Below, piece by piece: positions 48,444 through 64,000 of a DNA stretch of 64,000 bases. The notes beneath the pieces are model-generated. The model saw nothing but the letters and a program-made list of their open reading frames with translations, had not been told where the DNA came from and ran no database searches. This DNA is from Mesorhizobium sp. NFR06. GTDB taxonomy: Bacteria; Pseudomonadota; Alphaproteobacteria; Rhizobiales; Rhizobiaceae. The position numbers and the translations under genes are program-made. Position 1 is the first letter of the stretch; every line of letters begins with the position of its first letter. Where the stretch lies: positions 124,001 through 188,000 of the forward strand of contig NZ_FOVT01000011.1 in NCBI RefSeq assembly GCF_900115245.1, read 5' to 3'.

Positions 48444-48882
48444 CGGCTGTTCCCTTCGTTATCTTTCTTTTTTGCTATGAAACGAACTTAATCGCACCGG
48501 GTAACAGCCGAATGGTTGGTGGCGATTACCCGTGTAACAGGACTGAAACAGGCGCCGGGCTCGCCCGGCATGCTCGTCCAGCCACGACAATTCGACTTCC
48601 AGCTGCTTGCCGAACATATGCGCCTGCTGGGCCTGGCTGACTGTAAACGACCTCACACAAGCATGCTGAATCGAGCCCGTCGCCCCCTGCTGAGGCGCGC
48701 CTGGTATCCACGGGAACCAGCGTGATCCAAGACAGCTGCCCGCGCTCGGAATCGCTGTTTCGCTTCCTCGATTAAGACGCGGATTTTCCGGTATTTTTCC
48801 GGCTCTGACGAGCGTTAGCCTGTCTCCATAGAACTTTCATATTCTCACAAGCCATTGCATTTCAATACAAAATATGCCTATA
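48444..48882. other. Long intergenic region
   Basis: 439 bases between divergent genes with no convincing gene. Short ORFs on both strands (for example 48516-48725) lack ribosome sites and recognisable domains. The downstream end carries the regulatory palindrome listed next. Confidence 0.4.
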
Positions 48883-48898
48883 TTGAATGAGTATTCAA
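48883..48898. promoter_or_regulatory. BetI-like operator, site A
   Basis: TTGAATGAGTATTCAA: perfect TTGAAT/ATTCAA arms around GAGT, 19 bases before the Rieske oxygenase ATG. The same pattern occurs at 51883 and 60126. Confidence 0.6.
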
Positions 48899-48917
48899 CA
48901 AAAAGAAGAGCACATCC

Positions 48918-50120
48918 ATGAACCCGCACCTCCGTGATGTGGCGATCCCCAACGATTGGGACCGGCGGGGTTTGCCGGGATGGAGCTATCACTCCAACGC
49001 CATTCTCGAGCTGGAGAAGGAATACGTCTTTCGCAATCATTGGCAGATCGCCGGCCATGTCTGCGATGTGCCGAATCCGGGCGACTATCTGACCATGGAC
49101 GTCATCGGCGAGCGCGCGCTCATCGTGCGCGGCAAGGACGGCGGCGTGCGCGCCTTCAACAACATGTGCCGCCATCGTGGCAGTCGCGTCGTCGCCGACA
49201 GCCGGGGCAGTTGCAAGAACGCGCTGGTGTGCCCGTTCCACGGCTGGGTCTACAATCTCGACGGCACGCTGCGCGGTGCCGCCCGCCCACGCTCTTTCCC
49301 CGAGCTCGACAAGACCGAGTTCGGCCTGATGCCGCTCGACCTCGAAATCTGGATGGGCTTCATCTTCATCCGCTTCCGCAAGGGCGGTCCGCAGCCTTCG
49401 GTGGCCGAGCTTCTGAAGCCGATCGAAGCCGAAATGGCCCACTACAATGTTGCCGACATGGTGCCGTCCTGGGGCATCTGGACGCAGAAATCGCCGGTCA
49501 ACTGGAAGTCGGTGCGCGACGTCGACAACGAAGGCTACCACGTTGCCATGGCGCATCCGGCGCTGCAGGACCTCTATGGCGCCACCTATTTCGACGAGCC
49601 GTTCATCAATGGTGTGTCGCGCTCCTTCGCCGCCTATAATCCGCATGCCGGAAGGCGCTGGAGCGTGCGCGAGTACATCAAGCTGGCACCCGACGCTTCG
49701 CATCTGCCGGAGCATCTGCGCAAGGCCTGGATCTACTACGGCATCTTCCCTAACAACGCGCTGTCGATCATGCCCGAATCCGTGCAGTTCTATCAGGAGT
49801 TCCCGCTGTCGACCGGCGAGACGCTGCTGCGCGGCGCCATCTACCGCTACAAGGACGAGACCAGGGAGCAGGCGGCGGCGCGCTACCTCGCCTACCGCAT
49901 CGACCGCGACACGATGAACGAAGACGTGCAGCTTTCCGTGTGGTCGAATGAATCCATGGTGTCGGAGGCTTTCGAGGGTTTCTACCTCTCCGACCTCGAA
50001 TATGGCGTGCGCACCCACCACGACCATCTGCGCAAGCAGATACCGGTGCTCAATCTGGAAACCGCACCGGAAGAGAAGGACATGTGGGCGCTGAACGACG
50101 CGCTGCGGTCGAAGGGGTGA
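48918..50120 (+). CDS. Rieske non-heme iron oxygenase alpha subunit
   Basis: A 400-residue aromatic-ring-hydroxylating-type oxygenase. The Rieske motif C-x-H-x16-17-C-x2-H is visible (CRHRG and CPFHGW). The mononuclear iron site is in DVDNEGYHVAMAHPAL. Members with this architecture include glycine betaine, stachydrine and carnitine demethylases as well as ring dioxygenases. Context (BetI-like repressor, amine oxidases, GcvT-like protein) makes a methylated-amine demethylase the best guess. No separate reductase is next to it. An AAAAAGAAGAG stretch is the likely ribosome site. Confidence 0.88.
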   Translation: MNPHLRDVAIPNDWDRRGLPGWSYHSNAILELEKEYVFRNHWQIAGHVCDVPNPGDYLTMDVIGERALIVRGKDGGVRAFNNMCRHRGSRVVADSRGSCKNALVCPFHGWVYNLDGTLRGAARPRSFPELDKTEFGLMPLDLEIWMGFIFIRFRKGGPQPSVAELLKPIEAEMAHYNVADMVPSWGIWTQKSPVNWKSVRDVDNEGYHVAMAHPALQDLYGATYFDEPFINGVSRSFAAYNPHAGRRWSVREYIKLAPDASHLPEHLRKAWIYYGIFPNNALSIMPESVQFYQEFPLSTGETLLRGAIYRYKDETREQAAARYLAYRIDRDTMNEDVQLSVWSNESMVSEAFEGFYLSDLEYGVRTHHDHLRKQIPVLNLETAPEEKDMWALNDALRSKG

Positions 50121-50127
50121 AGCCTTC

Positions 50128-50371
50128 CCTTCTCCCCGTTTCACGGGGAGAAGGTGCCCGAAGGGCGGATGAGGGGCGGCGCCAGCGCCTCGCTATTGGC
50201 TTGCCGTCAATCTCAGAAGCTATCGTCTGATTTGCAAGGCGGCGCAGCGCAGGTTGGTGAGGTTATCGCCTCAGACGGATGAAGCCCCTCATACGCGCTC
50301 AGTGGCCAATGTCAGCGCCGCCCCTCATCCGCCTGCCGGCACCTTCTCCCCGTGAGTGAACGGGGAGAAGG
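50128..50371. repeat. Large palindromic intergenic repeat (about 244 bp)
   Basis: At each end is a perfect 12-bp hairpin CCTTCTCCCCGT / ACGGGGAGAAGG (50128-50154 and 50342-50371). Just inside lies a 19-bp perfect inverted repeat, GGCGGATGAGGGGCGGCGC at 50164-50182 and its complement at 50315-50333. It separates two convergent genes and may terminate both. Confidence 0.85.
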
Positions 50372-50379
50372 AAAAGACT

Positions 50380-51798
50380 TCACCCCCGCCAGACACCCTC
50401 TTTCCGCAAATCGTCCATCGTGCGCGAGATGCCTTCGCGCAGGATCGCTACCATGTCGTCGATCTGCTCGCGGCCGATGATCAGCGGCGGCGACATCACG
50501 CACATGTTGATCAGCGGCCGCACCAGCAGGCCAAGCTCGTGGCAATGCGCGTCGATGCGCTTGCCGACATCCTTGTCGAGCTGCAGCGGATCCTTGCTCT
50601 CGCGGTCGGCGACGCATTCGATGCAAGCCATCAGGCCGACGCCACGCACCTCGCCGACCAGCGGCAGCTCTTCCAGCGTCTTCAGCCGCGCCTGGAAATA
50701 GGGCGCGATCTCGCGCGTGTGGGCAAGCACGCCCTCTTCCAGCAGGTCGAGGTTCTTCAGCGCCACCGCGCAGCCGATCGGATGGCTGGTGTAGGTCAGC
50801 CCATGGCCGAACAGTGCGTCGGGATGGTTGGAGCGGCGCAGCTCTTCGAGCAGCCGTTCAGAGATGACGACGCCGCCAAGCGGGAAATAGCCTGACGTCA
50901 CGCCCTTGGCGAAAGTGATCATGTCCGGGTCGATGCCGAACACATCGCCGGAGGCAAAGACGTGGCCGAGCCGCCCGAAGCCCGTCACCACCTCATCCGA
51001 GACATAGAGAATGTCGTTGTCGCGGCAGATCTCGCGGATGCGCTTGAGATAGCCGTCCGGCGGCACGATGACGCCGCCGGAGGCCTGTACCGGTTCGCCG
51101 ACGAAGGCACCGATGCGATCGGCGCCGACGCGCGCGATCGCGTCGCGGAACTGGTCGACCAGGAAATCGGTGAAAGCAGAAACGTCCATGCCTTTCGGCC
51201 GCCGGAACGGATCGGGCGAGGAAAGCTTGACCACCAGCTCGTCGGCACCGTCCATCCAGTCGCGGTCGCGCGGCCGGCCGTTGAGCGACGCCGACAGATA
51301 GGTCGAGCCGTGATAGGCGCCGCCACGGCTGAGAATGAGCTTCTTCTCCGGCCGTCCGCGCACATTGTTGTAGAACTGCATGAAGCGCAGCGCCGTCTCG
51401 ACAGCCGAAGAGCCACCGGTGGTGAAGAAGGTGTGGCTGAGATCGCCCGGCGCGGCATCGGCGATACGCCGGGCAAGCTCGGCCGAGGGCGCATTCATCG
51501 TGTACCAGGGCGTGTTGTAGGACAGCGCCATCGCCTGGTCGTACATGACCTTGGCCAGTTCCTCGCGGCGATGGCCGACATTGATGCACCACATGCCGGC
51601 CGGACCGTCGATCAGGCGCTTGCCGGCGGCATCGGTGATGTAGACGCCGTCGCCCTCGGCGATCAGCGCGCGTGCCTCCGCGCCCACCGAACCGGCATAA
51701 GGCCAGGGCTGGACGAGGTGTCGCTTGGCGAGCTCGACCGCGCCGTCATCACTGGCCTCGATCATTTCCCGTGCCTTGATATCCCTTACAGCTGCCAT
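50380..51798 (-). CDS. Class III PLP-dependent aminotransferase
   Basis: A 472-residue omega-aminotransferase (aspartate aminotransferase fold type I). The phosphate-binding GGSSAVETA, Asp268 in YVSDEVVTGFGR and the PLP Lys298 in TFAKGVTSGYFP are intact. Relatives transfer the amino group of putrescine, beta-alanine or other omega-amines to pyruvate or 2-oxoglutarate. Start ATG 51798, with GAGGC just upstream. It is divergent from the ABC transporter operon; both face operator site B. Confidence 0.93.
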   Translation of the reverse strand: MAAVRDIKAREMIEASDDGAVELAKRHLVQPWPYAGSVGAEARALIAEGDGVYITDAAGKRLIDGPAGMWCINVGHRREELAKVMYDQAMALSYNTPWYTMNAPSAELARRIADAAPGDLSHTFFTTGGSSAVETALRFMQFYNNVRGRPEKKLILSRGGAYHGSTYLSASLNGRPRDRDWMDGADELVVKLSSPDPFRRPKGMDVSAFTDFLVDQFRDAIARVGADRIGAFVGEPVQASGGVIVPPDGYLKRIREICRDNDILYVSDEVVTGFGRLGHVFASGDVFGIDPDMITFAKGVTSGYFPLGGVVISERLLEELRRSNHPDALFGHGLTYTSHPIGCAVALKNLDLLEEGVLAHTREIAPYFQARLKTLEELPLVGEVRGVGLMACIECVADRESKDPLQLDKDVGKRIDAHCHELGLLVRPLINMCVMSPPLIIGREQIDDMVAILREGISRTMDDLRKEGVWRG

Positions 51799-51882
51799 CT
51801 TAGCCTCGCATTTCAGGTTGCGGATTCCGATGGACACAAAACGAAGCGGAACCTTGGAAATTCGGCCTTTCGTCACTTCATT

Positions 51883-51898
51883 TTGAATGTCCGTTCAA
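51883..51898. promoter_or_regulatory. BetI-like operator, site B
   Basis: TTGAATGTCCGTTCAA, matching TTGAA-N6-TTCAA, between the divergent aminotransferase and ABC permease genes (84 and 179 bases from their starts). Confidence 0.6.
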
Positions 51899-52077
51899 TC
51901 AATATTGCAGAAATAGAGCTTGATTTCAATCGGCGGATACGCTCATGATGAAGAAAGCCGGCAAGCCAGGGAGCAATTCCTCTCCAGGCATAAAATGGGA
52001 ACACGGCGCTGCGAATGGGAAGGCCGCATGGCGGGACAGTCCGAGCCAGCTACCGAAATCACGCCCGGAGCGCTGCA

Positions 52078-52995
52078 ATGACGGCGACGGCGGAAGGATC
52101 GCCCCCGTTACGCGTGGTGGGATTGAGACGAAGTCCCCTTCTGCAATCGGAAGCCGTCCAAGGCTTTGCCCTGATCAGCCCGACCTTCGTTTATGCCCTC
52201 ATTCTTCTCGTCGCGCCGATCCTGGTCGTCATCGCGCATTCGTTCTGGACCCAGGATTACCTCACCATCGACCACACATTCACGCTGGAGAACTACCGGA
52301 TCGCGCTGACCGAGCCGATCTACCGCGACCTGCTCTGGCGCTCGCTCAACATCTCGCTGACGGTCAGCTTGCTGACGGTGCTGCTTGCCTACCCGATCGC
52401 CTATTTCATTTCCTTCCACGGCGGCCGCCACAAGAGCCTGTGGCTGTTCCTCATCACCATCCCGTTCTGGACTAGCTACCTGCTGCGCGTGATGTCTTGG
52501 AAGGTGATCCTCGGCTATAACGGCGTGCTCAATTCCGGCCTGATGGGCCTTGGCATCATCGACGAGCCGTCGACCGCGCTGCTCTATAATTCCACCGCCG
52601 TCATCATCACGCTCACCCATGCCTGGGCGACCTTCGCCATCCTGCCGATCTTCGTTTCGCTGGAGAAGGTCGACCGCACATTGGTCGAAGCGGCCACCGA
52701 CCTCGGCGACGGACCGCTGCGCTCTTTCCTGCGCGTGACCCTGCCGCTGTCGGCGCCCGGCGTCATCTCCGCGGCGCTGATCGTCATGATCCCGACCGTC
52801 GGCGACTACGTCACGCCCAAACTCGTCGGCGGCAAGGACGGCGTCATGATCGCCAATGCCATCCAGGCGCAATTCGGCAAGGCATCGAACTGGCCGCTGG
52901 GCGCTGCGCTCTCCGTCACCACCATGATCATCGTCTCGCTGATGGCTGGCGCCACCGTGCTGGTCTTCCGCGCCCTGCAGAGGCTGGCACGATGA
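52078..52995 (+). CDS. ABC transporter permease (PotB-like)
   Basis: A 305-residue inner-membrane permease, six helices, with the EAA cytoplasmic loop visible as LVEAATDLGDGPLRSFLRVTLPLSAPGV. First gene of the transporter run. Start ATG 52078, with GGAG upstream; the frame is open further up. It belongs to the spermidine/putrescine permease group. Confidence 0.92.
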   Translation: MTATAEGSPPLRVVGLRRSPLLQSEAVQGFALISPTFVYALILLVAPILVVIAHSFWTQDYLTIDHTFTLENYRIALTEPIYRDLLWRSLNISLTVSLLTVLLAYPIAYFISFHGGRHKSLWLFLITIPFWTSYLLRVMSWKVILGYNGVLNSGLMGLGIIDEPSTALLYNSTAVIITLTHAWATFAILPIFVSLEKVDRTLVEAATDLGDGPLRSFLRVTLPLSAPGVISAALIVMIPTVGDYVTPKLVGGKDGVMIANAIQAQFGKASNWPLGAALSVTTMIIVSLMAGATVLVFRALQRLAR

Positions 52996-53813
52996 CGGCG
53001 ACAAGACGTTACCTGCCGGGATGGCTGTCGAGCTACGCCGTCCTCTACCTGCTTTTCCTTTATCTGCCGGTGATCTTCCTGCCGATCTTCTCGATCAACA
53101 CCGCGGCGACGCCGAAATTCCCGCTCTCGGGCGTCACCCTTCATTGGTACGAGGATCTGCCGCGCACGCCGGCTCTGATCGACGCCACCTGGAACAGCCT
53201 CATCGTCGGCGTCTCGGCCTCGATCCTCTCGACGGTGCTCGGCATCCTCGCCGCCCGCTCGATCACCCGCTACCGCTATCCCGGCCGCCGCGCCATCAAC
53301 GGCCTGATCATGGCGCCGCTGGTGCTGCCCGAGGTGATCGTCGCCATCTCGATGCTGCTGGTCTTGCTGCAGCTCGGCTTGAGCCTGTCGCTGTTCACCG
53401 TCGTGCTCGGCCACGTGCTGGTCTGCATCCCCTATTCGATGACGGTGCTGACCTCCGGCTTCGAGGGCTTCGACCGCAGCCTCGAGGAGGCCTCTGCCGA
53501 TCTCGGCGAGAGCGCCTTCGGCACCTTCCGACGCGTGACGCTGCCGATGGTCGCGCCGGCGATCATCTCCAGCCTGCTCGTCTGCTTCACCATATCGCTC
53601 GACGAATTCATCATCGCCTTTTTCCTCACCGGCACCGAGGCGACGCTGCCGATCTACATCTGGGGCCAGCTGCGCTTCGCGGCCAAGCTTCCCGGCGTGC
53701 TGGCGCTCGGCACTTTGCTGCTCTTTGCGTCCTTCGCGCTGATGACGATTGCCGAAATCCTGCGCCGCCGTGCGGCGAGACGCACCCAGACCGAGGGAGG
53801 CCTCTATGCTTGA
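52992..53813 (+). CDS. ABC transporter permease (PotC-like)
   Basis: A 273-residue second permease, overlapping the first by 4 bases. EAA loop: LEEASADLGESAFGTFRRVTLP. About six helices. It forms the heterodimeric channel with the upstream permease and is energised by the ATPase that overlaps its 3' end. Confidence 0.92.
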   Translation: MTATRRYLPGWLSSYAVLYLLFLYLPVIFLPIFSINTAATPKFPLSGVTLHWYEDLPRTPALIDATWNSLIVGVSASILSTVLGILAARSITRYRYPGRRAINGLIMAPLVLPEVIVAISMLLVLLQLGLSLSLFTVVLGHVLVCIPYSMTVLTSGFEGFDRSLEEASADLGESAFGTFRRVTLPMVAPAIISSLLVCFTISLDEFIIAFFLTGTEATLPIYIWGQLRFAAKLPGVLALGTLLLFASFALMTIAEILRRRAARRTQTEGGLYA

Positions 53814-54927
53814 GCGGGTCCAATCCGAGCGCACCCAATCGGATCGCGCCATGATCGAGATCCGCGACGTGACGCGCAGCTACGGATCGTTCAAGGCGCT
53901 GGACAATGCCTCGCTTGCAATCCGGGAAGGCGAGTTCTTCTCGCTGCTCGGACCTTCGGGCTGCGGCAAGACCACGCTCTTGCGCATGATCGCCGGTTTC
54001 GACACGCCGACCAGCGGCTCCATCGCCGTCGACGGCCAGCCGATGGACGGCATTCCCGCCAACCGGCGGCCGACCAACATGGTCTTCCAGAGCTATGCGA
54101 TCTTCCCGCATCTCGATGTCGAGCAGAATGTCGCCTACGGTCTGAAACGTCTCAAGCTCCAGGGCGGCGAGGAAAAGCGCCGCGTCGAGGAGGCGCTGGC
54201 GCAAGTGTCGCTGACCGGCCTCGGCAAGCGCCGCGCCACCGAGCTTTCCGGTGGCCAGCGCCAGCGCGTGGCGCTCGCCCGCGCGCTGGTCATGCGGCCC
54301 AAGGTGCTGCTGCTCGACGAGCCGCTCTCGGCCCTCGACAAGAAATTGCGCGAACAGATGCAGGTCGAATTGCGCCGGCTGCAACAGGCGGTGGGCATCA
54401 CCTTCGTGCTGGTCACGCATGACCAGTATGAGGCCTTGGCGATGTCGGACCGCATCGCCGTCATGTTCGGCGGCCGCATCGCGCAGATCGCCTCGCCCAA
54501 GGAAATCTACCAGCGCCCTGTCAATCGCCAGGTGGCCGACTTCCTCGGCGGCATGAACTTCGTCAGGGCCGAGATCGTCGAGGAGAACGGCGCTTCGCTG
54601 GTGCTCGACACGCTGGGCTTCGGCCGCGTCAAGACCGACAAGCCGAAGGCTTTCGTGCGCAATGGCGGCGGCGCGGCGACACTCGGCATCCGGCCGGAGC
54701 GGCTGCGTGTGCTGTGGGACAATGCGACGGCGAAATTCGAGGTCGCCGGCAAGGTCGTCGAGCGCCACTATTTCGGCGAGATAACGCATCTGATCGTCGA
54801 GATACCGGGACTGGAAAAGCCGCTCTCGGTGACCGAGACCAACGATTTCGGCGCCGACGACATTCCGGTCGGCGCGCCGATCCGCCTCGCCTACGACCCT
54901 GAGGCCTTGGTGGCGATGGCCGACTGA
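53806..54927 (+). CDS. ABC transporter ATP-binding protein (PotA-like)
   Basis: A 373-residue ATPase. Walker A GPSGCGKTT is at residues 49-57, the signature LSGGQRQRVALARAL and Walker B VLLLDEPLSALD are intact, and a C-terminal TOBE domain follows (about 285-370). GGGAGG precedes ATG 53806. Its last 37 bases overlap the 3' end of the FAD amine oxidase on the opposite strand. Confidence 0.94.
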   Translation: MLERVQSERTQSDRAMIEIRDVTRSYGSFKALDNASLAIREGEFFSLLGPSGCGKTTLLRMIAGFDTPTSGSIAVDGQPMDGIPANRRPTNMVFQSYAIFPHLDVEQNVAYGLKRLKLQGGEEKRRVEEALAQVSLTGLGKRRATELSGGQRQRVALARALVMRPKVLLLDEPLSALDKKLREQMQVELRRLQQAVGITFVLVTHDQYEALAMSDRIAVMFGGRIAQIASPKEIYQRPVNRQVADFLGGMNFVRAEIVEENGASLVLDTLGFGRVKTDKPKAFVRNGGGAATLGIRPERLRVLWDNATAKFEVAGKVVERHYFGEITHLIVEIPGLEKPLSVTETNDFGADDIPVGAPIRLAYDPEALVAMAD

Positions 54928-56189
54928 ATCTTCGCGGCCGCGATGCGACCGGCGACAATCGCGCCTTCGACATAGCCCGGGAAAGACGGCGACACTTCCG
55001 AGGCGGCGAAATAGACCGGCGGCACGCCGGCGAGGATGATGCGCTCGGCATGGCGCGCCGTCACATCGACGATGAGGTCGCTATAGGCGCCGCCGCTCCA
55101 GCGGTCATGCGTCCAGTCGCGCGAGCTGAAATCGATGATCTCGGCCGCCCGTAGGCCGAGCGCTTCCACGAGCCTCGCGGTGACTTCCGCGCGCAACGCC
55201 GCAGCGCCGAGCGGATGCCAGCGCAGCGCGAGCGGCCCGCCGACAAAGACGACGAGCGCGGCATGGTCGGCATCCTGGCTGGCGTCGCAGGCGAACAGCC
55301 CAGGCTGGTCGCGCCACATGACCATGCCGCACAGGTCCCGCTCGCGCCAGAACGGACTGGCATAGCGCACCAGGATCTTGATCACCGCGCCGCTTTCCCA
55401 GACGCTGAGTGCCTGCGCAAGTTCCGCCGGCAAGGCAGGCGCGAAGTCGAGCTTTGCGGCCGTCGCCGGCGGCAATGCAATCAGGACTTCCCGCGCTTCG
55501 ATCGTCCCTGCAGTCGTGGTGATACGAACGCGTTCAGACCCATGCTCGATGCGCGTAACGGCCTCGCCAAGTCGCACTCGTCTGCCGAGATCCCCGGCAA
55601 GATCCTCGGCAAGCGACTGCATGGTCTCGCGCAGCGAGTATTGCAGTTCCGGAACCTCGTTGGTAATGCGGCGATCATTGTCGATCAGGTGCCAGAGCGG
55701 CACCTTGTCCACCGCCAGGCACCACAGTCCCTCGATCATCGACTTGAACGCGGCTTTGGCGTCAGTGGGGTCCTTCTGGCGCTCCAGCCAATCGGCGACA
55801 CTCAAGCCCGCAATCGCCGGATCGTCGGGCTCGATCCAGTTCATGCGCTCGCGGATGGCCATCGCGCCATGATAGGTCCGCCCGGCCTCAACGACCGACA
55901 TCGACGGATGCGTGATGAAATCGCCGTCGACATAGGTCTCGACGAATGTCTTGCTCCGCGCCTTCGCCAGAGCCGTTACCTGAGGCATGTCCTCGCAGAA
56001 GAACTGACCGCCGCTGTCGATCCGTTCGCCAAGCCCGTTTCGCACAGCCTCGACACGTCCACCCACGCGGTCGCGCGCCTCCAGAACGAGAAAATCGATG
56101 CCGGCCTTGTTCAGCTCGAACGCGGCCGACAGGCCGGTGAAGCCGGCGCCGACGATGACGACGTCGGTTCTTTCAATGACACTGCTCAA
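54891..56189 (-). CDS. FAD-dependent amine oxidase
   Basis: A 432-residue flavin monoamine oxidase-type enzyme. N-terminal Rossmann motif VVIVGAGFTGLSAAFEL, the R-x-GGR-type segment ARDRVGGRVEA, and a C-terminal FAD contact SPSFPGYVEGAIVAGR. There is no signal peptide. It overlaps the upstream binding-protein gene by 4 bases, so it is last in the minus-strand operon. Likely substrate: the amine brought in by the transporter. It is convergent with PotA and overlaps it. Confidence 0.88.
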   Translation of the reverse strand: MSSVIERTDVVIVGAGFTGLSAAFELNKAGIDFLVLEARDRVGGRVEAVRNGLGERIDSGGQFFCEDMPQVTALAKARSKTFVETYVDGDFITHPSMSVVEAGRTYHGAMAIRERMNWIEPDDPAIAGLSVADWLERQKDPTDAKAAFKSMIEGLWCLAVDKVPLWHLIDNDRRITNEVPELQYSLRETMQSLAEDLAGDLGRRVRLGEAVTRIEHGSERVRITTTAGTIEAREVLIALPPATAAKLDFAPALPAELAQALSVWESGAVIKILVRYASPFWRERDLCGMVMWRDQPGLFACDASQDADHAALVVFVGGPLALRWHPLGAAALRAEVTARLVEALGLRAAEIIDFSSRDWTHDRWSGGAYSDLIVDVTARHAERIILAGVPPVYFAASEVSPSFPGYVEGAIVAGRIAAAKIQSAIATKASGS

Positions 56190-57262
56190 TAGCCGGCCTT
56201 GATCTTCTCGAATTCGGCGATCATCCGCTGCTTGAGATCCGGCGCCACCGGCTGCTGGAACAGCGTCTTGTCGAGGAACTTGTCGAGATTGTCGAAGCCG
56301 CGTTCGGTAAGCAGCTTCTGGTCCATCGCCGCCATGCCGGCGCTGTTGCCGTGACCGTAGCCGAAGGTCTTCACCATGTACTCCGAAACAGCCGGCGCGT
56401 TGACGGCGTTCAGGAAATCATAGGCCTGGTCGGGCTTGCCGGGCGCGTCCTTCATCAGCACATAGCCGCATACCCAGGTCGAGATGCCTTCCTTGGTGTC
56501 GCGATTCATGGCGATCGGCAGACCCTGCCCCTTCAACGTCACATAGGTTTCGTTCCAACCCCAGACCAGGTCGACTTCGTTGCCCGTGAAGGCTTGGTTG
56601 AGGTCGGTGTCGTCGGTCCAGTAGAAGCGGACATTCTTGTGCACGTCGCGCAGGAAGGCCGAGGCCTGTTTGAACTGCTCGTCCGTCATCTTGGTCCAGT
56701 CTTTCAGACCGACCACAAGGCTCGCCAGCGCGTAGGCGTCATCGACATTGTCGCCGATGGTGACGCGGCCTTTGAATTTCGGATCCGCGAAGATTTTCAA
56801 CGACTGCGCCTCCTCCGCCGTCACCTTGTCGGTGCGGTAGAGCAGCGATGTGTTGCCCCAGTCGAAAGGCATGAACCAGGCTTTGCCGTCGGCGGTGGTA
56901 GCGAGATCCTTCATCGCCATGATGCCGGGGTTGAGATCCTTCCAGCCGGCGATCTTCGATGTATCGAGCGGCTGCAGCATGCCTGCCTCGCGCCACTTCG
57001 CCACGCTCTGCGAGCAGGGATGCGCGATGTCGGCCCTGAAGCCAGCGCGCATCTTCTCGAAGGCCTCGTCCTCGTCGCCGAAGAAGGAGAAGGTCGGCTC
57101 GCCGCCATATTTGGCCGCGTAGTCGGGATGCAGCACCGGATCCTCGTAGCCGGACCAGTCGAACACGACGAGTTCGCCGCCGCCTTCGGCCAGCGCATGG
57201 GCGGTGCCGGCGCCGATGGTGACGACGGCGGCCAAGGCAAGGCGGCGAAGCATGGATTTCAT
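56186..57262 (-). CDS. Periplasmic solute-binding protein, PotD/PotF-like (paralogue 2)
   Basis: A 358-residue exported binding protein with signal peptide 1-25 (cut near AHALA). Characteristic start VVFDWSGYEDP and then the PotF-type fold. It is closely similar over its whole length to the next gene (SKIAGWKDLNPGIMAMKDLA is shared). Last residues FEKIKAGY are shared too. Delivers substrate to the ABC permeases encoded on the other strand. Confidence 0.92.
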   Translation of the reverse strand: MKSMLRRLALAAVVTIGAGTAHALAEGGGELVVFDWSGYEDPVLHPDYAAKYGGEPTFSFFGDEDEAFEKMRAGFRADIAHPCSQSVAKWREAGMLQPLDTSKIAGWKDLNPGIMAMKDLATTADGKAWFMPFDWGNTSLLYRTDKVTAEEAQSLKIFADPKFKGRVTIGDNVDDAYALASLVVGLKDWTKMTDEQFKQASAFLRDVHKNVRFYWTDDTDLNQAFTGNEVDLVWGWNETYVTLKGQGLPIAMNRDTKEGISTWVCGYVLMKDAPGKPDQAYDFLNAVNAPAVSEYMVKTFGYGHGNSAGMAAMDQKLLTERGFDNLDKFLDKTLFQQPVAPDLKQRMIAEFEKIKAGY

Positions 57263-57375
57263 GGCGCGAGAACTCCCCCATCGCGAATATGTGAGGGGAC
57301 GTTAGGAAAATTCAGCAGCTTTGGCGAGCCCGCCTGCTTCGATCGAACGGGAAGCAGGCGGGTCCCCGGGCAAAC

Positions 57376-58458
57376 TCAATAGCCAGCTTTGATCTTCTCG
57401 AATTCAGCGATCATCTTGAGCTTGAGCTCGGAAGGCAGCGGCTGCTGGAACAGCGTCTTGTCGACCCACTTTTCCACGTTGTCGTAGCCCTTTTCCTTCA
57501 GCACCGCCTGGTCGACGCCGGCCATGCCCTTGGCGTTGGCCTGGCCGTAGCCCCAATCCTTGACCAGCACCTTGGCGACTTGCGGATCGTTGACCGCGTT
57601 GAGGTAATCATAGGCCTTGTCGATGTTGCCGGGCGCGTCCTTGAACAGCACATAGCCGCACACCCAGGTCGAGATGCCCTCCTCGGTATCCTTCTTGGAT
57701 TTGATCGGCACCCCGGCCGCTACCGACTGCATGGTGGCGTCGTTCCAGGCCCAGGCGAGGTCGACCTCGCCGCCGGAGAGCAGCTGCACGATGTCGGTGG
57801 TGTCGGTCCAGTAGGAGCGCACGTTCTTATGCACCTGGCGCAGGAAGTCGGACGCCTGCTTGAACTGCTCGTCCGTCATCTTGGTCCAGTCCTTGAGTCC
57901 GATGGCAAGGCTGGCCAGCGCATAGGCGTCGTCGACATTGTCGCCGATCGAGACCCTTCCCTTGTATTTTGGATCGGCGAAGGCCTTCAGCGACCGCACG
58001 TCCGTTTCGGCGATCTTGTCGGAATTGTAGGTGAGCTGGGTGTCACCCCAATCCCACGGCATGAACCAGGCCTTGCCGTCGGATGTCGTGGCGAGATCCT
58101 TCATCGCCATGATGCCGGGATTGAGGTCCTTCCAGCCGGCGATTTTCGAGGTGTCGAGCGGCTGCAGCAGGCCCGCCTCGCGCCACTTCACCACGCTCTG
58201 CGAGCAGGGATGGCCGAGATCGGACTTGAAGCCGGAGCGGATCTTCTCGAACGCCTCGTCCTCGTCGCCGAAGAAGGCGAAGGTCGGCGAATCGCCATTC
58301 TTCTCGACATATTTGCCGTGGAAGCTCGGATCCTCGTAGCCGGACCAGTCGAACACAACCAGATCCTTGTCGGCGGCAACGGCGAAAGCCGCCGCCGAGG
58401 CCGCCAGCGCGCTCCCAAGCGCCAATGTCAATGTCAGGCGTCGGCTGAGTTTCTTCAT
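57376..58458 (-). CDS. Periplasmic solute-binding protein, PotD/PotF-like (paralogue 1)
   Basis: A 360-residue exported binding protein with signal peptide 1-29. Tandem paralogue of the gene 113 bases downstream. The differences cluster between residues about 120 and 300, including the ligand region (DWGDTQLTYNSDKIAETD versus DWGNTSLLYRTDKV), so the two may bind different but related ligands. Co-oriented with the TetR gene, the paralogue and the amine oxidase. Confidence 0.92.
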   Translation of the reverse strand: MKKLSRRLTLTLALGSALAASAAAFAVAADKDLVVFDWSGYEDPSFHGKYVEKNGDSPTFAFFGDEDEAFEKIRSGFKSDLGHPCSQSVVKWREAGLLQPLDTSKIAGWKDLNPGIMAMKDLATTSDGKAWFMPWDWGDTQLTYNSDKIAETDVRSLKAFADPKYKGRVSIGDNVDDAYALASLAIGLKDWTKMTDEQFKQASDFLRQVHKNVRSYWTDTTDIVQLLSGGEVDLAWAWNDATMQSVAAGVPIKSKKDTEEGISTWVCGYVLFKDAPGNIDKAYDYLNAVNDPQVAKVLVKDWGYGQANAKGMAGVDQAVLKEKGYDNVEKWVDKTLFQQPLPSELKLKMIAEFEKIKAGY

Positions 58459-58538
58459 GCTGTTCCATCCTCTTTTGGTTTGCCGGTCTTGTTGGCCGGC
58501 TATTGCTAACCCCGGCTTTTGCTAGCCCCCAGTTCTCG

Positions 58539-59225
58539 CTAGCCATAGTGTTTCGGGAAGGCGGCGGCCAAAAACGCATTCGCCGCCTGCAATGCGGTCT
58601 CTCGCGTGGTGTCCTCCGTCCCCATCATCAGCCGCAGCCACAGGCCCTCGAGCATGGCGCTGAGCGCCAGGGCGATGACCTGGGGGTCATAGGCGTAGCC
58701 GCCGCTTTGTTTGAGCGTCGTGCAGAGATCGATGAAGACCTGCTGGTAGTAGGCGTCGCGCGAGCTGCTCAGCGCCTGATAGGTCGGTCGCGACTTGGCC
58801 TCGCCCCAGAAGGCGAGCCAGGCGGCGAGCTTGCGCTTGTTGCAGATCGAACGATCGAAATCGGCCCACACCAGTTGCTGCAGCTGTCTCGCCGGATCGT
58901 CGCCGGCCTTCTGCAAGGCGGTGCGCCAATGCGCCGAGTACTCGTCATACATGTGCTGCAGCGTGGCGATCAGCAGTTTTTCCTTGCTCTCGAAATGGAA
59001 GTTGACGATGCCACGCGAGAGACCCGCGCCGTCGGCGACATCGGCCATCGTCGTTTCGGCATAGCCGCGCTTGGCAAGTGAATCGATCGTCGCCTCGATC
59101 AGCTGCAGTCGCCTGACCTCTTTCGAGGCCTTGCGGCCGCGCTTGTCGGCATCGCCTTTTCGCGCTGGTTCGGGGAGAATATCCCTGGCCTCTGCGGTCT
59201 TCATGGGTGTGACGGTCTCCAGCAT
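58539..59225 (-). CDS. TetR family regulator, BetI-like
   Basis: A 228-residue repressor. Helix-turn-helix in TTMADVADGAGLSRGIVNFHF, and a C-terminal domain like choline-responsive BetI (KLAAWLAFWGEAKSRP, then LEGLWLRLMMG). ATG 59204 with GGAG is an alternative start. It lies 6 bases after the methyltransferase stop, so it belongs to the same minus-strand operon and would autoregulate through site C. Predicted to control all three BetI-like boxes. Confidence 0.85.
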   Translation of the reverse strand: MLETVTPMKTAEARDILPEPARKGDADKRGRKASKEVRRLQLIEATIDSLAKRGYAETTMADVADGAGLSRGIVNFHFESKEKLLIATLQHMYDEYSAHWRTALQKAGDDPARQLQQLVWADFDRSICNKRKLAAWLAFWGEAKSRPTYQALSSSRDAYYQQVFIDLCTTLKQSGGYAYDPQVIALALSAMLEGLWLRLMMGTEDTTRETALQAANAFLAAAFPKHYG

Positions 59226-59231
59226 TGCCGG

Positions 59232-60024
59232 CTATCCAACCGGCTTCCAACCGCGCAGATGAGTGGGGCGGTGCTCGCCACTGTCAAGCACCTTCTGCAT
59301 CGCCTCCCAGGTCCTGATGTTCTTGTCGACATAGGCCGCGCCGACCGCCTCGGCGGCTCGGCGGTAGAGCGGTCTTGAGCAGCGCGAGCTCGTCGCGCGC
59401 GACCTCGCGGTACCATGGATTGCGGTCGCGTACGGTGATGTCGGCAAAGCCGGCGCGCCGCATCGCCTCAGCATAGCGCTCCGGCGAGGCCATGGCGAAG
59501 GAGAGCCCTTCGGCCGCGACATAGGCCTTCATCTCAGGCGATGGCTCGCCGTCATGCGAGATCATCCAGTTCGACGCGGCAAAGACGCCGCCCGGCTTCA
59601 GCACACGCAAGATTTCAGCAAACAGCGCGTCCTTGTTCGGCACATGCAGCAGCGCGTCCTTGGAGAAGACGACATCGAAGGAGGCGGCCGGGAATGGCAG
59701 CGGCCCGGGCGGCGCCTGGACGAAGCTGACGCCGCCCTCGAGGCCTTGCCTGATCGCCCCTCGCCGCGCCGTCTCGATCACCGGCTTTTCGACGTCGAAG
59801 CCGATGGCTCGAGCCGCACCGTGCCGGGCAACCAGATGCAGCGTGATGCCGCCGGCGCCGCAGCCGATATCGAGGATCGTCTTGCCCTTGAGCGAGAGGC
59901 CCTCGACCACGCGGTCGACCTCGTCGGGGCCGCCCGGCGACAGGTAGCCCTCGCCCCACAGCGCTTCGAGGAAGCGGATGGCGGTATCGTCATACTCCGG
60001 CTTGTCGTCAGCCGTCTCAATCAT
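59232..60024 (-). pseudogene. SAM-dependent methyltransferase with frameshift
   Basis: The class I methyltransferase signature [16 protein letters not shown] is intact, and a Y-L-S-P-G-G-x-D-E-V segment resembles phosphoethanolamine N-methyltransferases. Translation from ATG 60024 is normal to LALLKTAL near 59369. There a 1-base loss moves the conserved end ([20 protein letters not shown] through LRGWKPVG) into another frame, ending at 59232. In frame, a premature unrelated tail ends at 59284. It may be a true mutation or a sequencing error. First gene of the minus-strand operon. Confidence 0.7.
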
Positions 60025-60125
60025 TGGATCTTCAGCCCCAAATGCCGATGTGGCCCATTCAGTCAAGCAGGGCCAGAAATGTCGGCAAAGCCTAGCGCAT
60101 CAACGGGAAAACGCAACACCATTTG

Positions 60126-60141
60126 TTGAACATTCATTCAA
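60126..60141. promoter_or_regulatory. BetI-like operator, site C
   Basis: TTGAACATTCATTCAA, matching TTGAA-N6-TTCAA, between the divergent methyltransferase-betI-like operon and the FAD oxidoreductase operon. Confidence 0.6.
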
Positions 60142-60203
60142 AATGACTGGACAAAAAACCGTGATCCGTGCAAAATTCGAGCAACCAGGGAACAAACCGC
60201 ACC

Positions 60204-60260
60204 GAGCAACTCCAGGAAAAGCGCGACGCGGTTTTCCGTCCGGAATTGCGGAAAAACAAG
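60204..60260. repeat. Short palindromic intergenic repeat, copy 2
   Basis: GAGCAACTCCAGGAAAA then GTTTTCCGTCCGGAATTGC and GGAAAAACAAG. Inner arms GGAAAA/TTTTCC (60215-60220, 60232-60237) and outer arms GCAACTCC/GGAATTGC (one mismatch) form a hairpin. It sits just upstream of the oxidoreductase ribosome site. Related to 6867-6920. Confidence 0.75.
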
Positions 60261-60292
60261 AAGATAGGCAGCCGAATGGAGGTTCAGCACGC

Positions 60293-61912
60293 ATGAAGGC
60301 ATGGGACGCGATCGTCATTGGCGGCGGCCATAACGGCCTGGTCAACGCCTGCTACCTGCAACGCGCCGGGCTCGACGTGCTGGTCGTCGAGAAGAACGAG
60401 TGGGTCGGCGGCGCCGCCACCAGCCGCGAGCTGACGCCGGGCTTCCTCTATTCCAACTGCTCCTATGTCTGTTCGCTGTTCAGGCCCGAGATCATGCGCG
60501 ATCTCGAGCTGCCGCGCTTCGGCCTGCAGGTGATCTCCTATGAAGGCGGCGCCGTGTTCACGCGCGACGGGGACTATCTCGCCAATTACCGTGACCACGA
60601 CGCGCACCGGCGCGAGTTCGCGCGCTTTTCCAGGCGCGACGCCGAGGCCTATGACCGCTATTCGCGCGACGTCACAAGGCAGTGCCGCTTCATCCAGCCG
60701 CTGGTGATGCGCACCGCGCCCGACCCGACGAGCCTCAAGCCCCGCGACCTCGGCGAGCTGCTCTATCTCGGCAGGAAATTCGCCGGGCTCTCGGCCGAAG
60801 AGATGGCGCTGACCCTGCGCTTCTGGACGATGTCGATCTCGGACTTCCTCGACGAGTATTTCGAGACCGACGTCATCAAGGCGAACTTCGCGCTTTCCGG
60901 CATCATCGGCACGGCCCTTGGGCCCATGTCGCCCGGCACGGCCTACGTCCTGCTCCACCATTATATGGGCGAGGTCGACGGCTCGGTCGGCGCCTGGGGC
61001 TATGCGCGCGGCGGCATGGGCGCCGTCACCAAGGCACTGGCCGCCTCCTTCACGGCCTCGGGCGGCATCATCCGCACCGGCGCGGAGGTCGACCATGTGC
61101 TGGTCAAGAAAGGCAAGGCCAAGGGCGTCGTGCTGGCTGGAGGTGAGGAGATCCACGGCAAGCTCGTCGTCTCCAACGCCGACTTCAAGCGCACCTTCCT
61201 CAAGCTGGTCGAGGAAAAGGAACTGCCCGACATCTTCCTGCGCCGTGTCCGGAATTTCAAAATCCGCGGCTCCTCCGGCAAGGTCAACATCGCGCTCGAT
61301 TCGCTGCCCGAATTCCCGGCCTTGCCCAAGGACTCGCCGGTCTATCGCGGCGACATGCACTTCACCGATTCCATCGAGCGCATGGAGCGCGCCTATGACG
61401 ACTGGAAGGCTGGACGCTGGTCGGCCGATCCCTTCCTCGACATGATGATCCCGACCACGCTCGACCCGACCATGGCGCCGCCGGGAAAACATTTCATGAG
61501 CTGCTTCGTGCAATACGCGCCGCCTAGGATCGACGGGCGCGACTGGACGGATGCCGACCGCGACGGTTTCGCCAAAAGCGTGATCGCGCAGATCGCCGAA
61601 TATTCGCCCGGCTTCCGCGACCGCATCGTCCACATGGAAGTGCGCACCCCGCGCGAGATCGAGGCCGAGGTCGGCCTCACCGAAGGCAACATCTTCCAGG
61701 GCGAGCTGACCTTCGACCAGTTGCTCTTCAACCGCCCTGTACCGGGCTACGCGCAATACCGCTCGCCGGTCGGCGGGCTCTATATGTGCGGCTCCTCCAC
61801 CCATCCGGGCGGCGGCGTCATGGGCGCGCCCGGACGCAACGCCGCCGCCGAGATCCTGTGCGATCTCGCCAAGCCGACCTTGCATATGAGCCCCGCCCAT
61901 GACGTCATCTGA
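60293..61912 (+). CDS. NAD(P)/FAD-dependent oxidoreductase, phytoene desaturase-like (first of two)
   Basis: A 539-residue flavoprotein of the phytoene desaturase/COG1233 type. N-terminal dinucleotide-binding motif IVIGGGHNGLVNACYLQRAG followed by VVEKNEWVGG. C-terminal FAD contact GLYMCGSSTHPGGGVMGAPG. GGAGG lies 10 bases before ATG 60293. It overlaps the next, homologous gene by 14 bases, so the pair is likely a heteromeric enzyme. It is not carotenoid-related by context; substrate unknown. Confidence 0.85.
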   Translation: MKAWDAIVIGGGHNGLVNACYLQRAGLDVLVVEKNEWVGGAATSRELTPGFLYSNCSYVCSLFRPEIMRDLELPRFGLQVISYEGGAVFTRDGDYLANYRDHDAHRREFARFSRRDAEAYDRYSRDVTRQCRFIQPLVMRTAPDPTSLKPRDLGELLYLGRKFAGLSAEEMALTLRFWTMSISDFLDEYFETDVIKANFALSGIIGTALGPMSPGTAYVLLHHYMGEVDGSVGAWGYARGGMGAVTKALAASFTASGGIIRTGAEVDHVLVKKGKAKGVVLAGGEEIHGKLVVSNADFKRTFLKLVEEKELPDIFLRRVRNFKIRGSSGKVNIALDSLPEFPALPKDSPVYRGDMHFTDSIERMERAYDDWKAGRWSADPFLDMMIPTTLDPTMAPPGKHFMSCFVQYAPPRIDGRDWTDADRDGFAKSVIAQIAEYSPGFRDRIVHMEVRTPREIEAEVGLTEGNIFQGELTFDQLLFNRPVPGYAQYRSPVGGLYMCGSSTHPGGGVMGAPGRNAAAEILCDLAKPTLHMSPAHDVI

Positions 61913-63473
61913 TTTGAACTGGGGCGCCATCGTCATCGGCGGCGGCCACAACGGTCTCGTCGCCGCAGCCACGCTGGCGAAGTCCGGCCGCAAGGTGCTG
62001 CTGCTCGAGGCCGGCAACGAGGTCGGCGGCGCGGGGCGAACCGAGGAATTCGCGCCCGGCTTCCGCGTGTCCGCTGTCGCCCATCTGCTCAATCGCCTGC
62101 ATCCCGATGTGGTGAAGACGCTGGAGCTTGAGCGCCACGGGCTGAGGGTCGAGCGCGTGGATTTCGTGCCCTCGGTCGCGCTGTCGAAGGACGGTCCGCT
62201 GGTGCTGCACGGCGCCTATGGCGAGGTGCTGAGCGGCGCCAGCCGGTCGGAACAATCCGCCTGGAAGGTGCTGCGGGCGCAGCTGCTGCGCTATGCCGGC
62301 GTGCTGAAGCCATTCCTGTCGCGCCGGCCGCCGGACCTTGCCGGCATGTCGCTCGCCGAAATGACCGGGCTCGGCCAAACGGCGCTGGCGCTGAAGAAGC
62401 TCGGCAAGGAAGACATGCGCGACTTCCTGCGCGTGCTTTTGATGAACGTCTACGACCTGCTCGACGAGCAGCTTTCCGATGACCGGCTGAAGGGCCTGCT
62501 CGCCTTCGACGCGACGCTCGGCTCGCATCTCGGGCCGCGCTCGCCGACTTCGCTGCTCGGCCTCTACTACCGGCTGGCGGGCGAGATCGGCGGCCTCGCC
62601 GGCGCGCAGATCCTGCCGAGAGGCGGCATGGGCGCCGTCGTCGCCGCCATTCGCTCGGCGGCCGAAAAGGCGGGCGTTTCGATCCGCCCGGCATCGCCGG
62701 TCGCCAAGGTCATCGTCGAGAAAGGCCGCGCCATCGGCGTCGTCACGCAAAACGGCGAGACGCTGCGCGCCAGGACGGTCGTCTCCGCCATCAATCCGGC
62801 GACGACGATCCTCGACCTCGTCGGGCCGCGCGAGGTCGACACCGGCTTCGTGCGCAAGGTGAAGAACATCCGCATGAAGGGCGATGCCGCCAAGCTCCAT
62901 CTGGCGCTCGACCGGCCGCCGCAATTTGCAGGCGTCGGCGTCGCCGGCCACAAGGGCCGCCTCGTCATCGCCGCCTCGCCCGACCATGTCGAGCGCGCCT
63001 TCAACCCGTCGAAATACGGCGAGTTCTCGCCCGAGCCGGTGATGGAGATCACGTTGCCGAGCCTCGTCGATGCCTCGCTCGCGCCCTCGGGCGCCTGCGT
63101 GCTCTCGGCCGTGGTGCAATACGCACCCTATGCGCTGAGACAGGGCTGGACCGCCGGCAAGCCGCAATTCCTCAAGGCGATCATGGCACAGCTCGAAGCC
63201 TATGCGCCCGGCATCGGCGCGACGGTACGCCATGCCGATCTTCTGACGCCGGCCGACATCGAGGCGCGCTACCGGATGCCCGGCGGCCACTGGCACCATG
63301 GCGAGTTGCAGGCCGACCAGATGCTGATGTTGCGGCCGGTCTCCGGTTGGTCGGGCTACGACACGCCGCTCGAAGGACTGTTCCTCGCCGGCGCCGGTTC
63401 GCATCCCGGCGGTGGCATCTCCGGCGCGCCCGGCCTCAACGCCGCGCGCCGCATCATCGCGATGAGGGCATGA
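61899..63473 (+). CDS. NAD(P)/FAD-dependent oxidoreductase, phytoene desaturase-like (second of two)
   Basis: A 524-residue homologue of the preceding gene with the same order: AIVIGGGHNGLVAAATLAKSG, then LLEAGNEVGGAGR, and the C-terminal GLFLAGAGSHPGGGISGAPG. Its start lies inside the end of the previous gene (14-base overlap), indicating translational coupling. The two flavoproteins precede a GcvT-like gene, suggesting oxidation of an N-methyl or amine carbon with tetrahydrofolate-linked C1 transfer. That role is inference. Confidence 0.85.
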   Translation: MTSSDLNWGAIVIGGGHNGLVAAATLAKSGRKVLLLEAGNEVGGAGRTEEFAPGFRVSAVAHLLNRLHPDVVKTLELERHGLRVERVDFVPSVALSKDGPLVLHGAYGEVLSGASRSEQSAWKVLRAQLLRYAGVLKPFLSRRPPDLAGMSLAEMTGLGQTALALKKLGKEDMRDFLRVLLMNVYDLLDEQLSDDRLKGLLAFDATLGSHLGPRSPTSLLGLYYRLAGEIGGLAGAQILPRGGMGAVVAAIRSAAEKAGVSIRPASPVAKVIVEKGRAIGVVTQNGETLRARTVVSAINPATTILDLVGPREVDTGFVRKVKNIRMKGDAAKLHLALDRPPQFAGVGVAGHKGRLVIAASPDHVERAFNPSKYGEFSPEPVMEITLPSLVDASLAPSGACVLSAVVQYAPYALRQGWTAGKPQFLKAIMAQLEAYAPGIGATVRHADLLTPADIEARYRMPGGHWHHGELQADQMLMLRPVSGWSGYDTPLEGLFLAGAGSHPGGGISGAPGLNAARRIIAMRA

Positions 63474-63508
63474 GATGAATTCGCTATTCACAAATGCAGC
63501 GCTCTACG

Positions 63509-63710
63509 GCGCCGCCCTCTGCCCTGCCGGGCATCTCCCCCACTTGGGGGGAGATCAGCAGTTCGGTTTGTCGGCGCCTTTCTTGCAACGCCGGAGATTG
63601 GCGAAATCGCCGGCGACGGCCAACCTCGCCCCTTGTGGGCGAGATGTCCGGTCCACCCTCTGCAGCGCAGCTGCTGCGGAGGACGGGCAGGACAGAGGGG
63701 GGCGCGAAGG
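63509..63710. repeat. Palindromic intergenic repeat (about 200 bp)
   Basis: Hairpins ATCTCCCCC-ACTT-GGGGGGAGAT (63533-63555) and CTCGCCC-CTTGT-GGGCGAG (63625-63643), enclosed by long imperfect inverted arms (GCCCTCTGCCCTGCC near 63515 and its near-complement ending at 63710). It separates two co-oriented genes of the operon and could act as a processing or attenuation site. Confidence 0.7.
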
Positions 63711-63719
63711 AACGCCGTC

Positions 63720-64000
63720 ATGAATCAGCATCCCACCATCAAGCCGTCGATCGACGCTCGCGCCCTCGCCCAATCCCACTCCCGCACCCTGCGGCTCGGC
63801 ACGCCATTCCAGCCGCGCATCGACGCCCTGGGCCTGAAGCAGGACTGGTACAGCTGGGCCGGCTATCGCGCGCCGCATTCGCTGTGGGACGAGGAGCTCG
63901 AATATTTCGCCATCCGCAGCCAGGCGGCACTCTTCGACATCTCGCCGATGACCAAATACCGGATCGAAGGTCCGGATGCGGAAGCCTATCTCGACCGCGT
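63720..64000 (+). CDS. GcvT-like aminomethyltransferase domain protein (partial)
   Basis: The first 93 codons of a protein cut by the window end. GTPFQPRIDALGLKQDWYSW and AALFDISPMTKYRIEGPDAE are typical of the N-terminus of GcvT and of the folate domain of dimethylglycine/sarcosine dehydrogenases. AAGGAAC precedes ATG 63720. In context it would accept C1 units onto tetrahydrofolate during N-demethylation. Confidence 0.8.
   Translation, partial: MNQHPTIKPSIDARALAQSHSRTLRLGTPFQPRIDALGLKQDWYSWAGYRAPHSLWDEELEYFAIRSQAALFDISPMTKYRIEGPDAEAYLDR

Follow-up and report, generated by a model that had tools for sequence, protein, structure and literature searches.

The window, that is, the whole stretch of 64,000 nucleotides analyzed here, corresponds to positions 124001–188000 of contig C11 in the 6.16 Mb genome of Mesorhizobium sp. 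NFR06 (G000), and its 3′ part holds most of a compact, evolutionarily conserved cluster of fourteen genes. The cluster is apparently governed by one repressor acting via three matching DNA sites and looks like an uncharacterized pathway for the uptake and demethylation of a nitrogen-methylated compound. Gene identities were assigned by family scans of the cluster proteins.

From 5′ to 3′, the cluster opens with operator 1 (TTGAATGAGTATTCAA, 48883–48898; like the other two operators, it has no strand), which ends 19 bp 5′ of the ATG (48918) of a Rieske oxygenase α-subunit gene (48918–50120, plus strand) whose product carries the CntA-type bridging glutamate Glu205 and an aspartate at position 203. 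The class III aminotransferase gene (50380–51798, minus strand) encodes a member of the PRK07036 family (724.9 bits vs a cut-off of 618), and operator 2 (TTGAATGTCCGTTCAA, 51883–51898) is located between its ATG at 51798 and the first of three plus-strand importer genes, which according to the family scans encode a PotB-like permease (52078–52995), a PotC-like permease (52992–53813), and a PotA-like ATPase (53806–54927). On the minus strand follow the genes for a flavin amine oxidase that is MAO-like by family scan (54891–56189), binding protein 1 of the PotD family, again by family scans (56186–57262), binding protein 2, which has the PotD fold with the acidic polyamine residues replaced (57376–58458), a TetR-family repressor that is a BetI paralog (58539–59225), and an S-adenosylmethionine (SAM)-dependent methyltransferase that is frameshifted in this genome (59232–60024). 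Operator 3 (TTGAACATTCATTCAA, 60126–60141) separates the ATG of the methyltransferase at 60024 from the plus-strand genes of the CrtI/CrtO-like flavoprotein FAD1 (60293–61912), its paralog FAD2 (61899–63473), and a GcvT-like aminomethyltransferase, of which the first part (63720–64000) lies in the window and the whole gene reaches 64958, beyond the window end. Directly 3′ of it, an 85-residue protein with the motif WSGRTRYAAAM is encoded (64960–65217 in window numbering, L005:4960–5217). According to the preliminary description, the three operator regions control every gene between 48.9 and 64 kb: The gene directions would agree with such control, but the cluster extends beyond 64 kb.

Conservation of the operators and the cluster repressor

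The palindromes of the form TTGAA-N6-TTCAA that had been reported at 48883, 51883, and 60126 were confirmed at these positions; shuffles predict 0.03 occurrences per window. A scan of the whole genome returned four sites in 6.16 Mb, namely the three in the cluster and one more, rather than many unrelated ones. For comparison, we assembled 84 related clusters (L008, L009, L010, L014, and the 80 main loci L043–L122) and kept L011, L012, L013, L015, and L147–L149 outside this set as distant contexts; FAD1 itself is 94–96% identical to genes of many Mesorhizobium records and 97% identical to one unclassified Hyphomicrobiales record. Usable sequence 5′ of the Rieske gene is present in only 19 of the 84 loci, the others being truncated by the end of a contig or of the 10 kb flank, and all 19 have a site with at most one mismatch, always 12–20 bp before the start. 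Such a site also precedes the aminotransferase/permease pair in 72 of 72 loci and FAD1 in 79 of 84, while the remaining five FAD1 promoters carry a site with two mismatches (84/84 with at most two). Gene order varies between clusters (e.g., L008, L010, L103, and L104), and the sites remain with their promoters. Outside the three promoter regions of the related loci, no perfect and 39 one-mismatch sites were counted in 1,621,394 positions. The shuffles, the genome count, and this near-absence elsewhere rule out a chance origin of the motif. The consensus derived from the compared clusters is YTGAAYGnnCRTTCAR, the YG..CR core of which is complete in the operator at 51883 and shows one departure in each of the other two cluster operators.

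Judged from this conservation of sites at the same promoters in related clusters, which supports what the preliminary description had proposed, a single local regulon with three operators is very likely real. In an order-wide sample of 297 genomes, 17 contain FAD1, 28 the strict motif, and nine both, so that the motif occurs in 9/17 genomes with FAD1 vs 19/280 without (Fisher p 2e-6); this test is weaker than its p value suggests because only five of the nine sites fall within the cluster by position (G000, G069, G136, G224, and G295). The limited positional overlap weighs against the regulon, as do three further points. The main loci were chosen as the 80 best among 523 relatives; as they lean to Mesorhizobium, their site counts are not independent. 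As a yardstick, 4,200 stretches of 480 bases were drawn at random from these loci without excluding the real promoters: The best match was perfect in 140, had one mismatch in 130, and had two in 348, so that taken by themselves the five FAD1 sites with two mismatches are weak. Finally, the distant cluster L166 has sites at the Rieske and aminotransferase promoters and none before FAD1, where the best match has four mismatches.

The BetI-like C-terminal domain that had been ascribed to the repressor was found (PF13977, E 4e-19); that the cluster is a strictly defined BetI regulon, however, is not supported. The repressor reaches 128.6 bits in the TIGR03384 equivalog model, below the cut-off of 201.3, and 130.9 bits in the looser PRK00767 model (NF001978), above the cut-off of 118. 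Two other genes of the genome, the products of which are 27% and 23% identical to the cluster repressor, exceed the TIGR03384 cut-off with 256.9 and 212.9 bits. Moreover, the operator consensus does not match the published betI box ATTGACG*CGTCAAT, as given in an excerpt of PMC12442346. By these sequence comparisons, the cluster repressor is best described as a BetI paralog and not as the best BetI of the genome.

This raises the alternative that another regulator, for instance a genuine BetI, binds the operators and that the resident TetR protein is a passenger. In its favor, the same excerpt describes boxes of the Ruegeria protein BetI2 with a AAACTTGAAC flank, a similar half-site, and a BetI2-like half-site in the cluster operators is possible; the two genes above the TIGR03384 cut-off would be at hand as candidates. 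However, just 5′ of the first of them (L145, G000:C16:33000–50000, at about 8719), which is the probable true BetI locus of the genome, lies the different palindrome TTGACGGATCAATCAA, which is nearer to the published box (as excerpted in PMC12442346) than to the cluster operators, and at the second BetI locus no TTGA-N0–8-TCAA site was found. In addition, the motif follows the resident TetR protein from cluster to cluster: With a divergent TetR protein, it is altered or missing. In Parasedimentitalea marina (L011), which has the same gene types, the TetR protein is 33–35% identical and no site with at most one mismatch exists; instead, TTGAGCGCTCAA-type palindromes precede FAD1, the binding protein, and, imperfectly and as seen by eye, the Rieske/permease operon. 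Nine further distant clusters (L163–L171) were evaluated with sites called at no more than one mismatch and three of four core bases: Sites are present in L163, L166, L167, and L171, whose TetR identity is 56–62%, and L164 (46%) has one weak site, whereas none was found in L165, L169, and L170 (51, 45, and 40%) and neither a TetR gene nor a site in L168. With the exception of L166, the operator thus seems to diverge along with the regulator, as the different palindrome beside the divergent repressor of L011 also suggests. Control by a regulator other than the resident TetR protein is consequently very improbable.

The fourth genomic site (TTGAAGTTTGTTTCAA at C12:107480, L004:1501–1516) is devoid of the YG..CR core. 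It is positioned 13 bp 5′ of an open frame resembling a pyridoxal phosphate (PLP) enzyme, a spacing similar to that of the Rieske operator; the encoded enzyme is presumably of the diaminopropionate ammonia-lyase type. Weaker genomic sites were considered as further regulon members and dismissed, as 31 sites with at most two mismatches vs 24 for the reversed control are uninformative. The one-mismatch site at C6:268252 was inspected by eye; it falls at the start of an open frame and precedes, by 113 bp, a frame that looks like a LysR-type gene. Across 61 genomes of the genus, 2–12 exact TTGAA-N6-TTCAA sites occur per genome vs 0–6 for the reversed pattern, and among the matches listed many have other cores (TTGAAG, TTGAAA). 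As for the promoters in the window, operator 1 overlaps a TATATT −10-like hexamer at 48879–48884 (by eye), and operator 2 directly follows the −10-like AATATT (51906–51901) of the aminotransferase, which is a scan match; with two sigma-70-like matches vs 2.1 expected, their number is not above chance and the hexamers at the operators are without statistical weight.

Enzymes and binding proteins

The nearest solved relatives of the Rieske enzyme are CntA and Stc2. In an excerpt of PMC7948474, group V Rieske oxygenases are defined by phylogeny and quaternary-amine substrates, the bridging glutamate of CntA is E205, group Va is marked by tyrosine or phenylalanine and group Vb by asparagine at position 203, and CntA accepts carnitine and γ-butyrobetaine. 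Alignment to CntA and Stc2 places Glu205 and Asp203 in the motif WKSVRDVDNEGYH of the cluster enzyme, and both residues are found in 27 of 27 orthologs covering residues 196–215 (other sequences, including a further Rieske gene of L011, were omitted from this count). The bridging glutamate of CntA is hence retained throughout, whereas neither the aromatic residue of group Va (CntA, choline monooxygenase) nor the asparagine of group Vb (GbcA, Stc2) occurs at position 203. Like CntA (Va) as well as GbcA and Stc2 (Vb), the cluster enzyme combines a Rieske with a catalytic domain and has Glu205, yet it differs from all of them by Asp203, a placement based on these residues. Three non-orthologous Rieske genes (L011, L147) combine Glu205 with phenylalanine or tyrosine. 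Glycine betaine demethylation by GbcA was rejected as the identity of this step, the enzyme scoring 133.2 bits vs a cut-off of 670 in NF058607.

The importer shares fold and operon make-up with the polyamine importers PotABCD and PotFGHI, and its ATPase just passes the potA model TIGR01187 (356.3 vs 355.6). It differs from them in that the cut-offs for PotB, PotC, PotD, and PotF are missed and the acidic residues are replaced. Binding protein 2, for which, as for the 85-residue protein, a fold prediction was made (pLDDT 89), is closest to PotD and PotF in the PDB, with TM scores to the query of mostly 0.73–0.80 and identities of 20–23% among the top 30 matches; the opine receptors MotA and AgtB appear among the same matches, and the family scores remain at 87.1 vs 582 bits (PotD) and 72.6 vs 636 bits (PotF). 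The residues that we take to be the PotD ligands, Glu36, Asp168, Glu171, and Asp257, align with Gly, Asn, Asp, and Cys, so that one acid is kept (Glu171 to Asp), while Glu36 corresponds to Gly40 and Asp257 to Cys267. Invariant in 35 of 35 binding proteins are Gly40, Tyr41, Asn174, Cys267, and the tryptophans 38, 238, and 265; the kept tryptophans and the tyrosine presumably correspond to the lining of the PotD pocket. With the acidic ligands of PotD exchanged, the pocket would disfavor a polycation and would instead suit an ammonium group caged by aromatic residues.

For the GcvT-like protein, the best model is the GcvT part of trimethylamine N-oxide (TMAO) demethylase (E 3e-73), and a solved relative was found with E 3e-49. 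The cut-offs of the named families are not reached, neither for TMAO demethylase (247.7 vs 1100) nor for GcvT (156.3 vs 235.85) or DmdA (120.7 vs 410). TMAO demethylase, the enzymes oxidizing dimethylglycine and sarcosine, and DmdA have in common with the cluster a folate-binding GcvT fold for one-carbon uptake; here, in contrast, the GcvT-like protein stands alone beside two CrtI/CrtO-like flavoproteins and the 85-residue protein. Sarcosine oxidase also has a small subunit. The gap between FAD2 and the GcvT-like gene amounts to about 250 bp in the window (63474–63719) and possibly contains an inserted intergenic repeat, as seen by eye; in several related loci the two genes are nearly adjacent.

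Of 88 loci searched, 82 have a GcvT-like match, and in 80 of these the gene of the 85-residue protein comes next, the exceptions being L090, where the sequence ends soon after the start of the GcvT match, and L011. The protein has no Pfam match; the model of a close ortholog (L043) is all-helical (pLDDT 90) and has no fold match in the PDB with E under 8. Within a 385-genome sample of the class, only its own genome was found to encode it. Fuscovulum ytuae has a relative of the protein that is fused to a cupin of the dimethylsulfoniopropionate (DMSP)-lyase type (L147:26647–27498).

The methyltransferase is frameshifted near its 3′ end: The open frame ends at 59284, and the conserved C-terminus continues in another frame ending at 59232. 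In each of the eight relatives compared, a single frame of 264–268 residues runs without interruption. The frameshift may reflect real decay or an assembly error. The methyltransferase has no match in several related clusters, e.g., L008 and L009, and the amine oxidase has none in L008, L009, L010, and L014.

FAD1, FAD2, and the GcvT-like protein are encoded in all nine distant clusters and therefore, as far as gene content tells, appear to form the invariant core. The small protein, alone or fused, occurs in three of these clusters (L164, L166, and L169), and in some of them a more PotF-like binding protein replaces the type of the cluster. An acyl-CoA dehydrogenase gene is located near the TetR gene in L163, L165, L167, and L171 (4/9), an acyl-CoA ligase-like gene is found in L163, L167, and L171 (3/9), and no Rieske match above 38% identity was found within the 18–20 kb examined in L163, L165, L167, and L171. 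The Rieske reaction appears to be one of several alternatives by which the pathway could begin. In Shinella sumterensis, a FAD1 relative (42%) and a GcvT gene stand beside a carnitine-3-dehydrogenase-like gene (468 vs a cut-off of 592), a BKACE-like gene (232.8 vs 382), a gene annotated as acetate-CoA-ligase family, and a class II aldolase above the PRK07490 cut-off. The same aldolase type lies inside the cluster of L102, together with a gene that resembles γ-butyrobetaine dioxygenase (264.5 vs 414.75; TmpA 260 vs 400). The acyl-CoA and carnitine-type genes are a hint of a betaine with a carboxylate.

Proposed route and competing explanations

The combination of a Rieske oxygenase, two flavoproteins, a folate protein, and a transaminase fits a route that takes three methyl groups off R-N(CH3)3 and then transaminates the resulting R-NH2. 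In the absence of ligand, the repressor would block all three promoters including that of its own operon, and the imported N-methylated compound, or its product, would release it. The PotABC-type transporter is expected to import the substrate with the help of one or two binding proteins, whereupon the CntA/Stc2-related Rieske monooxygenase would take one methyl group off the quaternary nitrogen. FAD1 and FAD2 could then remove the next two methyl groups in concert with the GcvT-like protein, which would bind folate, and perhaps with the 85-residue helical protein, the methyl carbon being handed to tetrahydrofolate, and the class III aminotransferase would finally deaminate the primary amine. 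An excerpt of PMC10590968 describes FAD enzymes that oxidize N-methyl aminoethylphosphonate beside a transaminase pathway, an example showing that N-methyl amines can be substrates of FAD enzymes in clusters of this sort. The methylated-amine catabolism put forward in the preliminary description is well supported by this set of enzymes, which fit oxidative demethylation and transamination, and by the bridging glutamate that the Rieske enzyme shares with CntA.

Altogether, we regard it as rather probable that one TetR protein governs a regulon for the uptake, stepwise N-demethylation, and transamination of an N-methylated compound, probably a betaine-like trimethylammonium. A more specific version is tentative: It joins a third subclade of quaternary-ammonium Rieske enzymes, marked by Asp203, to a multi-subunit demethylase made of FAD1, FAD2, the GcvT-like protein, and the 85-residue protein, which would be unlike sarcosine oxidase, under a BetI paralog with an operator of its own. 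Several observations weigh against the proposed route. A Rieske ortholog with more than 38% identity is present in only two of the nine distant clusters (L166 and L169) and an aminotransferase of the PRK07036 type likewise in only two (L166 and L170), whereas a class III enzyme of the GSAM/GntE type occurs in six and the methyltransferase in five (L163 and L167–L170); the Rieske step is thus not tied to the core, and the role of the methyltransferase may be underrated. Moreover, a Rieske reductase was not found among the scanned cluster genes, and electrons must therefore come from elsewhere. Lastly, none of the clues from carnitine-type and acyl-CoA genes stems from this genome; all were seen in relatives.

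Which compound enters the route, and whether it is broken down at all, can be read differently. The preliminary description had admitted a polyamine or methylated polyamine, a reading in which the importer would be a genuine polyamine transporter: Among solved structures, PotD, PotF, and SpuD/E are closest to the binding protein, the aminotransferase and the amine oxidase resemble amine-handling enzymes, and the PotF-like substitute in some distant clusters would suit this idea. It is weakened by the loss of the acidic residues with which PotD holds the amine, Gly40 and Cys267 being invariant, by the opine receptors in the same fold list, and by scores far below the PotD and PotF cut-offs, so that we deem a polyamine improbable. 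By these sequence features, the substrate is most likely a betaine-type trimethylammonium with a single positive charge and possibly a carboxylate, not a polyamine. Among such compounds, γ-butyrobetaine or a close ω-trimethylammonio acid, converted to the ω-amino acid and by the aminotransferase to the semialdehyde, is conceivable though somewhat unlikely. It would agree with the FAD and GcvT genes beside carnitine-type genes, the dioxygenase-like gene of L102, the acyl-CoA enzymes of some distant clusters, and a Rieske enzyme nearest to CntA, which oxidizes carnitine and γ-butyrobetaine (PMC7948474, excerpt). Yet all these genomic clues stem from relatives in which the named models remain below their cut-offs, and the aromatic residue 203 that CntA employs for these substrates is an aspartate here. 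If, on the other hand, the methyltransferase came first, the genes could serve synthesis, conversion, or detoxification of an amine rather than catabolism, as might be read from the co-regulated SAM methyltransferase in many loci and five of nine distant clusters and from the GntE/GSAM-like aminotransferase in six of nine. The importer, the oxygenase, the folate-linked GcvT-like protein, and the flavoproteins fit breakdown instead, and a methyltransferase that is frameshifted here and without a match in several related clusters speaks against a leading part; we therefore judge such a role to be rather improbable.

Relation to known systems and further observations

With the BetI regulon, which serves the conversion of choline to glycine betaine, the cluster shares a TetR protein with PF13977 and palindromic promoter boxes; it differs in that its TetR protein scores below the TIGR03384 cut-off, its operator is another one, and no bet enzyme genes are among its genes. 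The homarine pathway was considered as the identity of the cluster and rejected, as no operon with these genes turned up in the literature searched. The earlier statement that no described pathway has this exact composition agrees with the open-access literature: Among the matches listed in our searches, which left subscription journals mostly outside their scope, none describes the cluster. Catabolic clusters that combine control by a TetR protein with a Rieske enzyme of the quaternary-ammonium type are a kind already known. What looks new is the gene composition, the aspartate at position 203, the pairing of the flavoproteins with a GcvT-like protein, and the small protein.

Betaines and N-methylated amines abound as osmolytes in plants and in the sea, and rhizosphere bacteria feed on them. 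If the proposed reading is true, many Mesorhizobium strains and their relatives possess an undescribed demethylation route, carotenoid-desaturase-like flavoproteins paired with a GcvT-like protein gain their first functional setting, and a small conserved protein family without known role is added. With three short operators and one repressor, the reading lends itself to direct tests, and the repressor could be used as a sensor for the compound.

Apparent remnants of the cluster are seen in Sinorhizobium fredii GR64 (L015), with a broken binding protein and pieces of the TetR and ATPase genes, and in Ensifer adhaerens Casida A (L148), with a short GcvT-like piece and part of the small gene. 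Elsewhere in the genome of the window, the one-mismatch sites TTGTACGATCGTTCAA (C19:82915) and TTGAACGACCGTACAA (C19:97976) flank, within about 8 kb, a BetI-like TetR gene at C19:89854, which is possibly a second local regulon. In Leisingera sp. S132 (L013:7176–17955), a related PotABCD-type transporter, a Rieske enzyme, a flavoprotein of the old yellow enzyme (OYE) type, an MttB-family methyltransferase, and an agmatinase are encoded beside another TetR protein, and the promoter carries ATGGACGATTGTCCAT.

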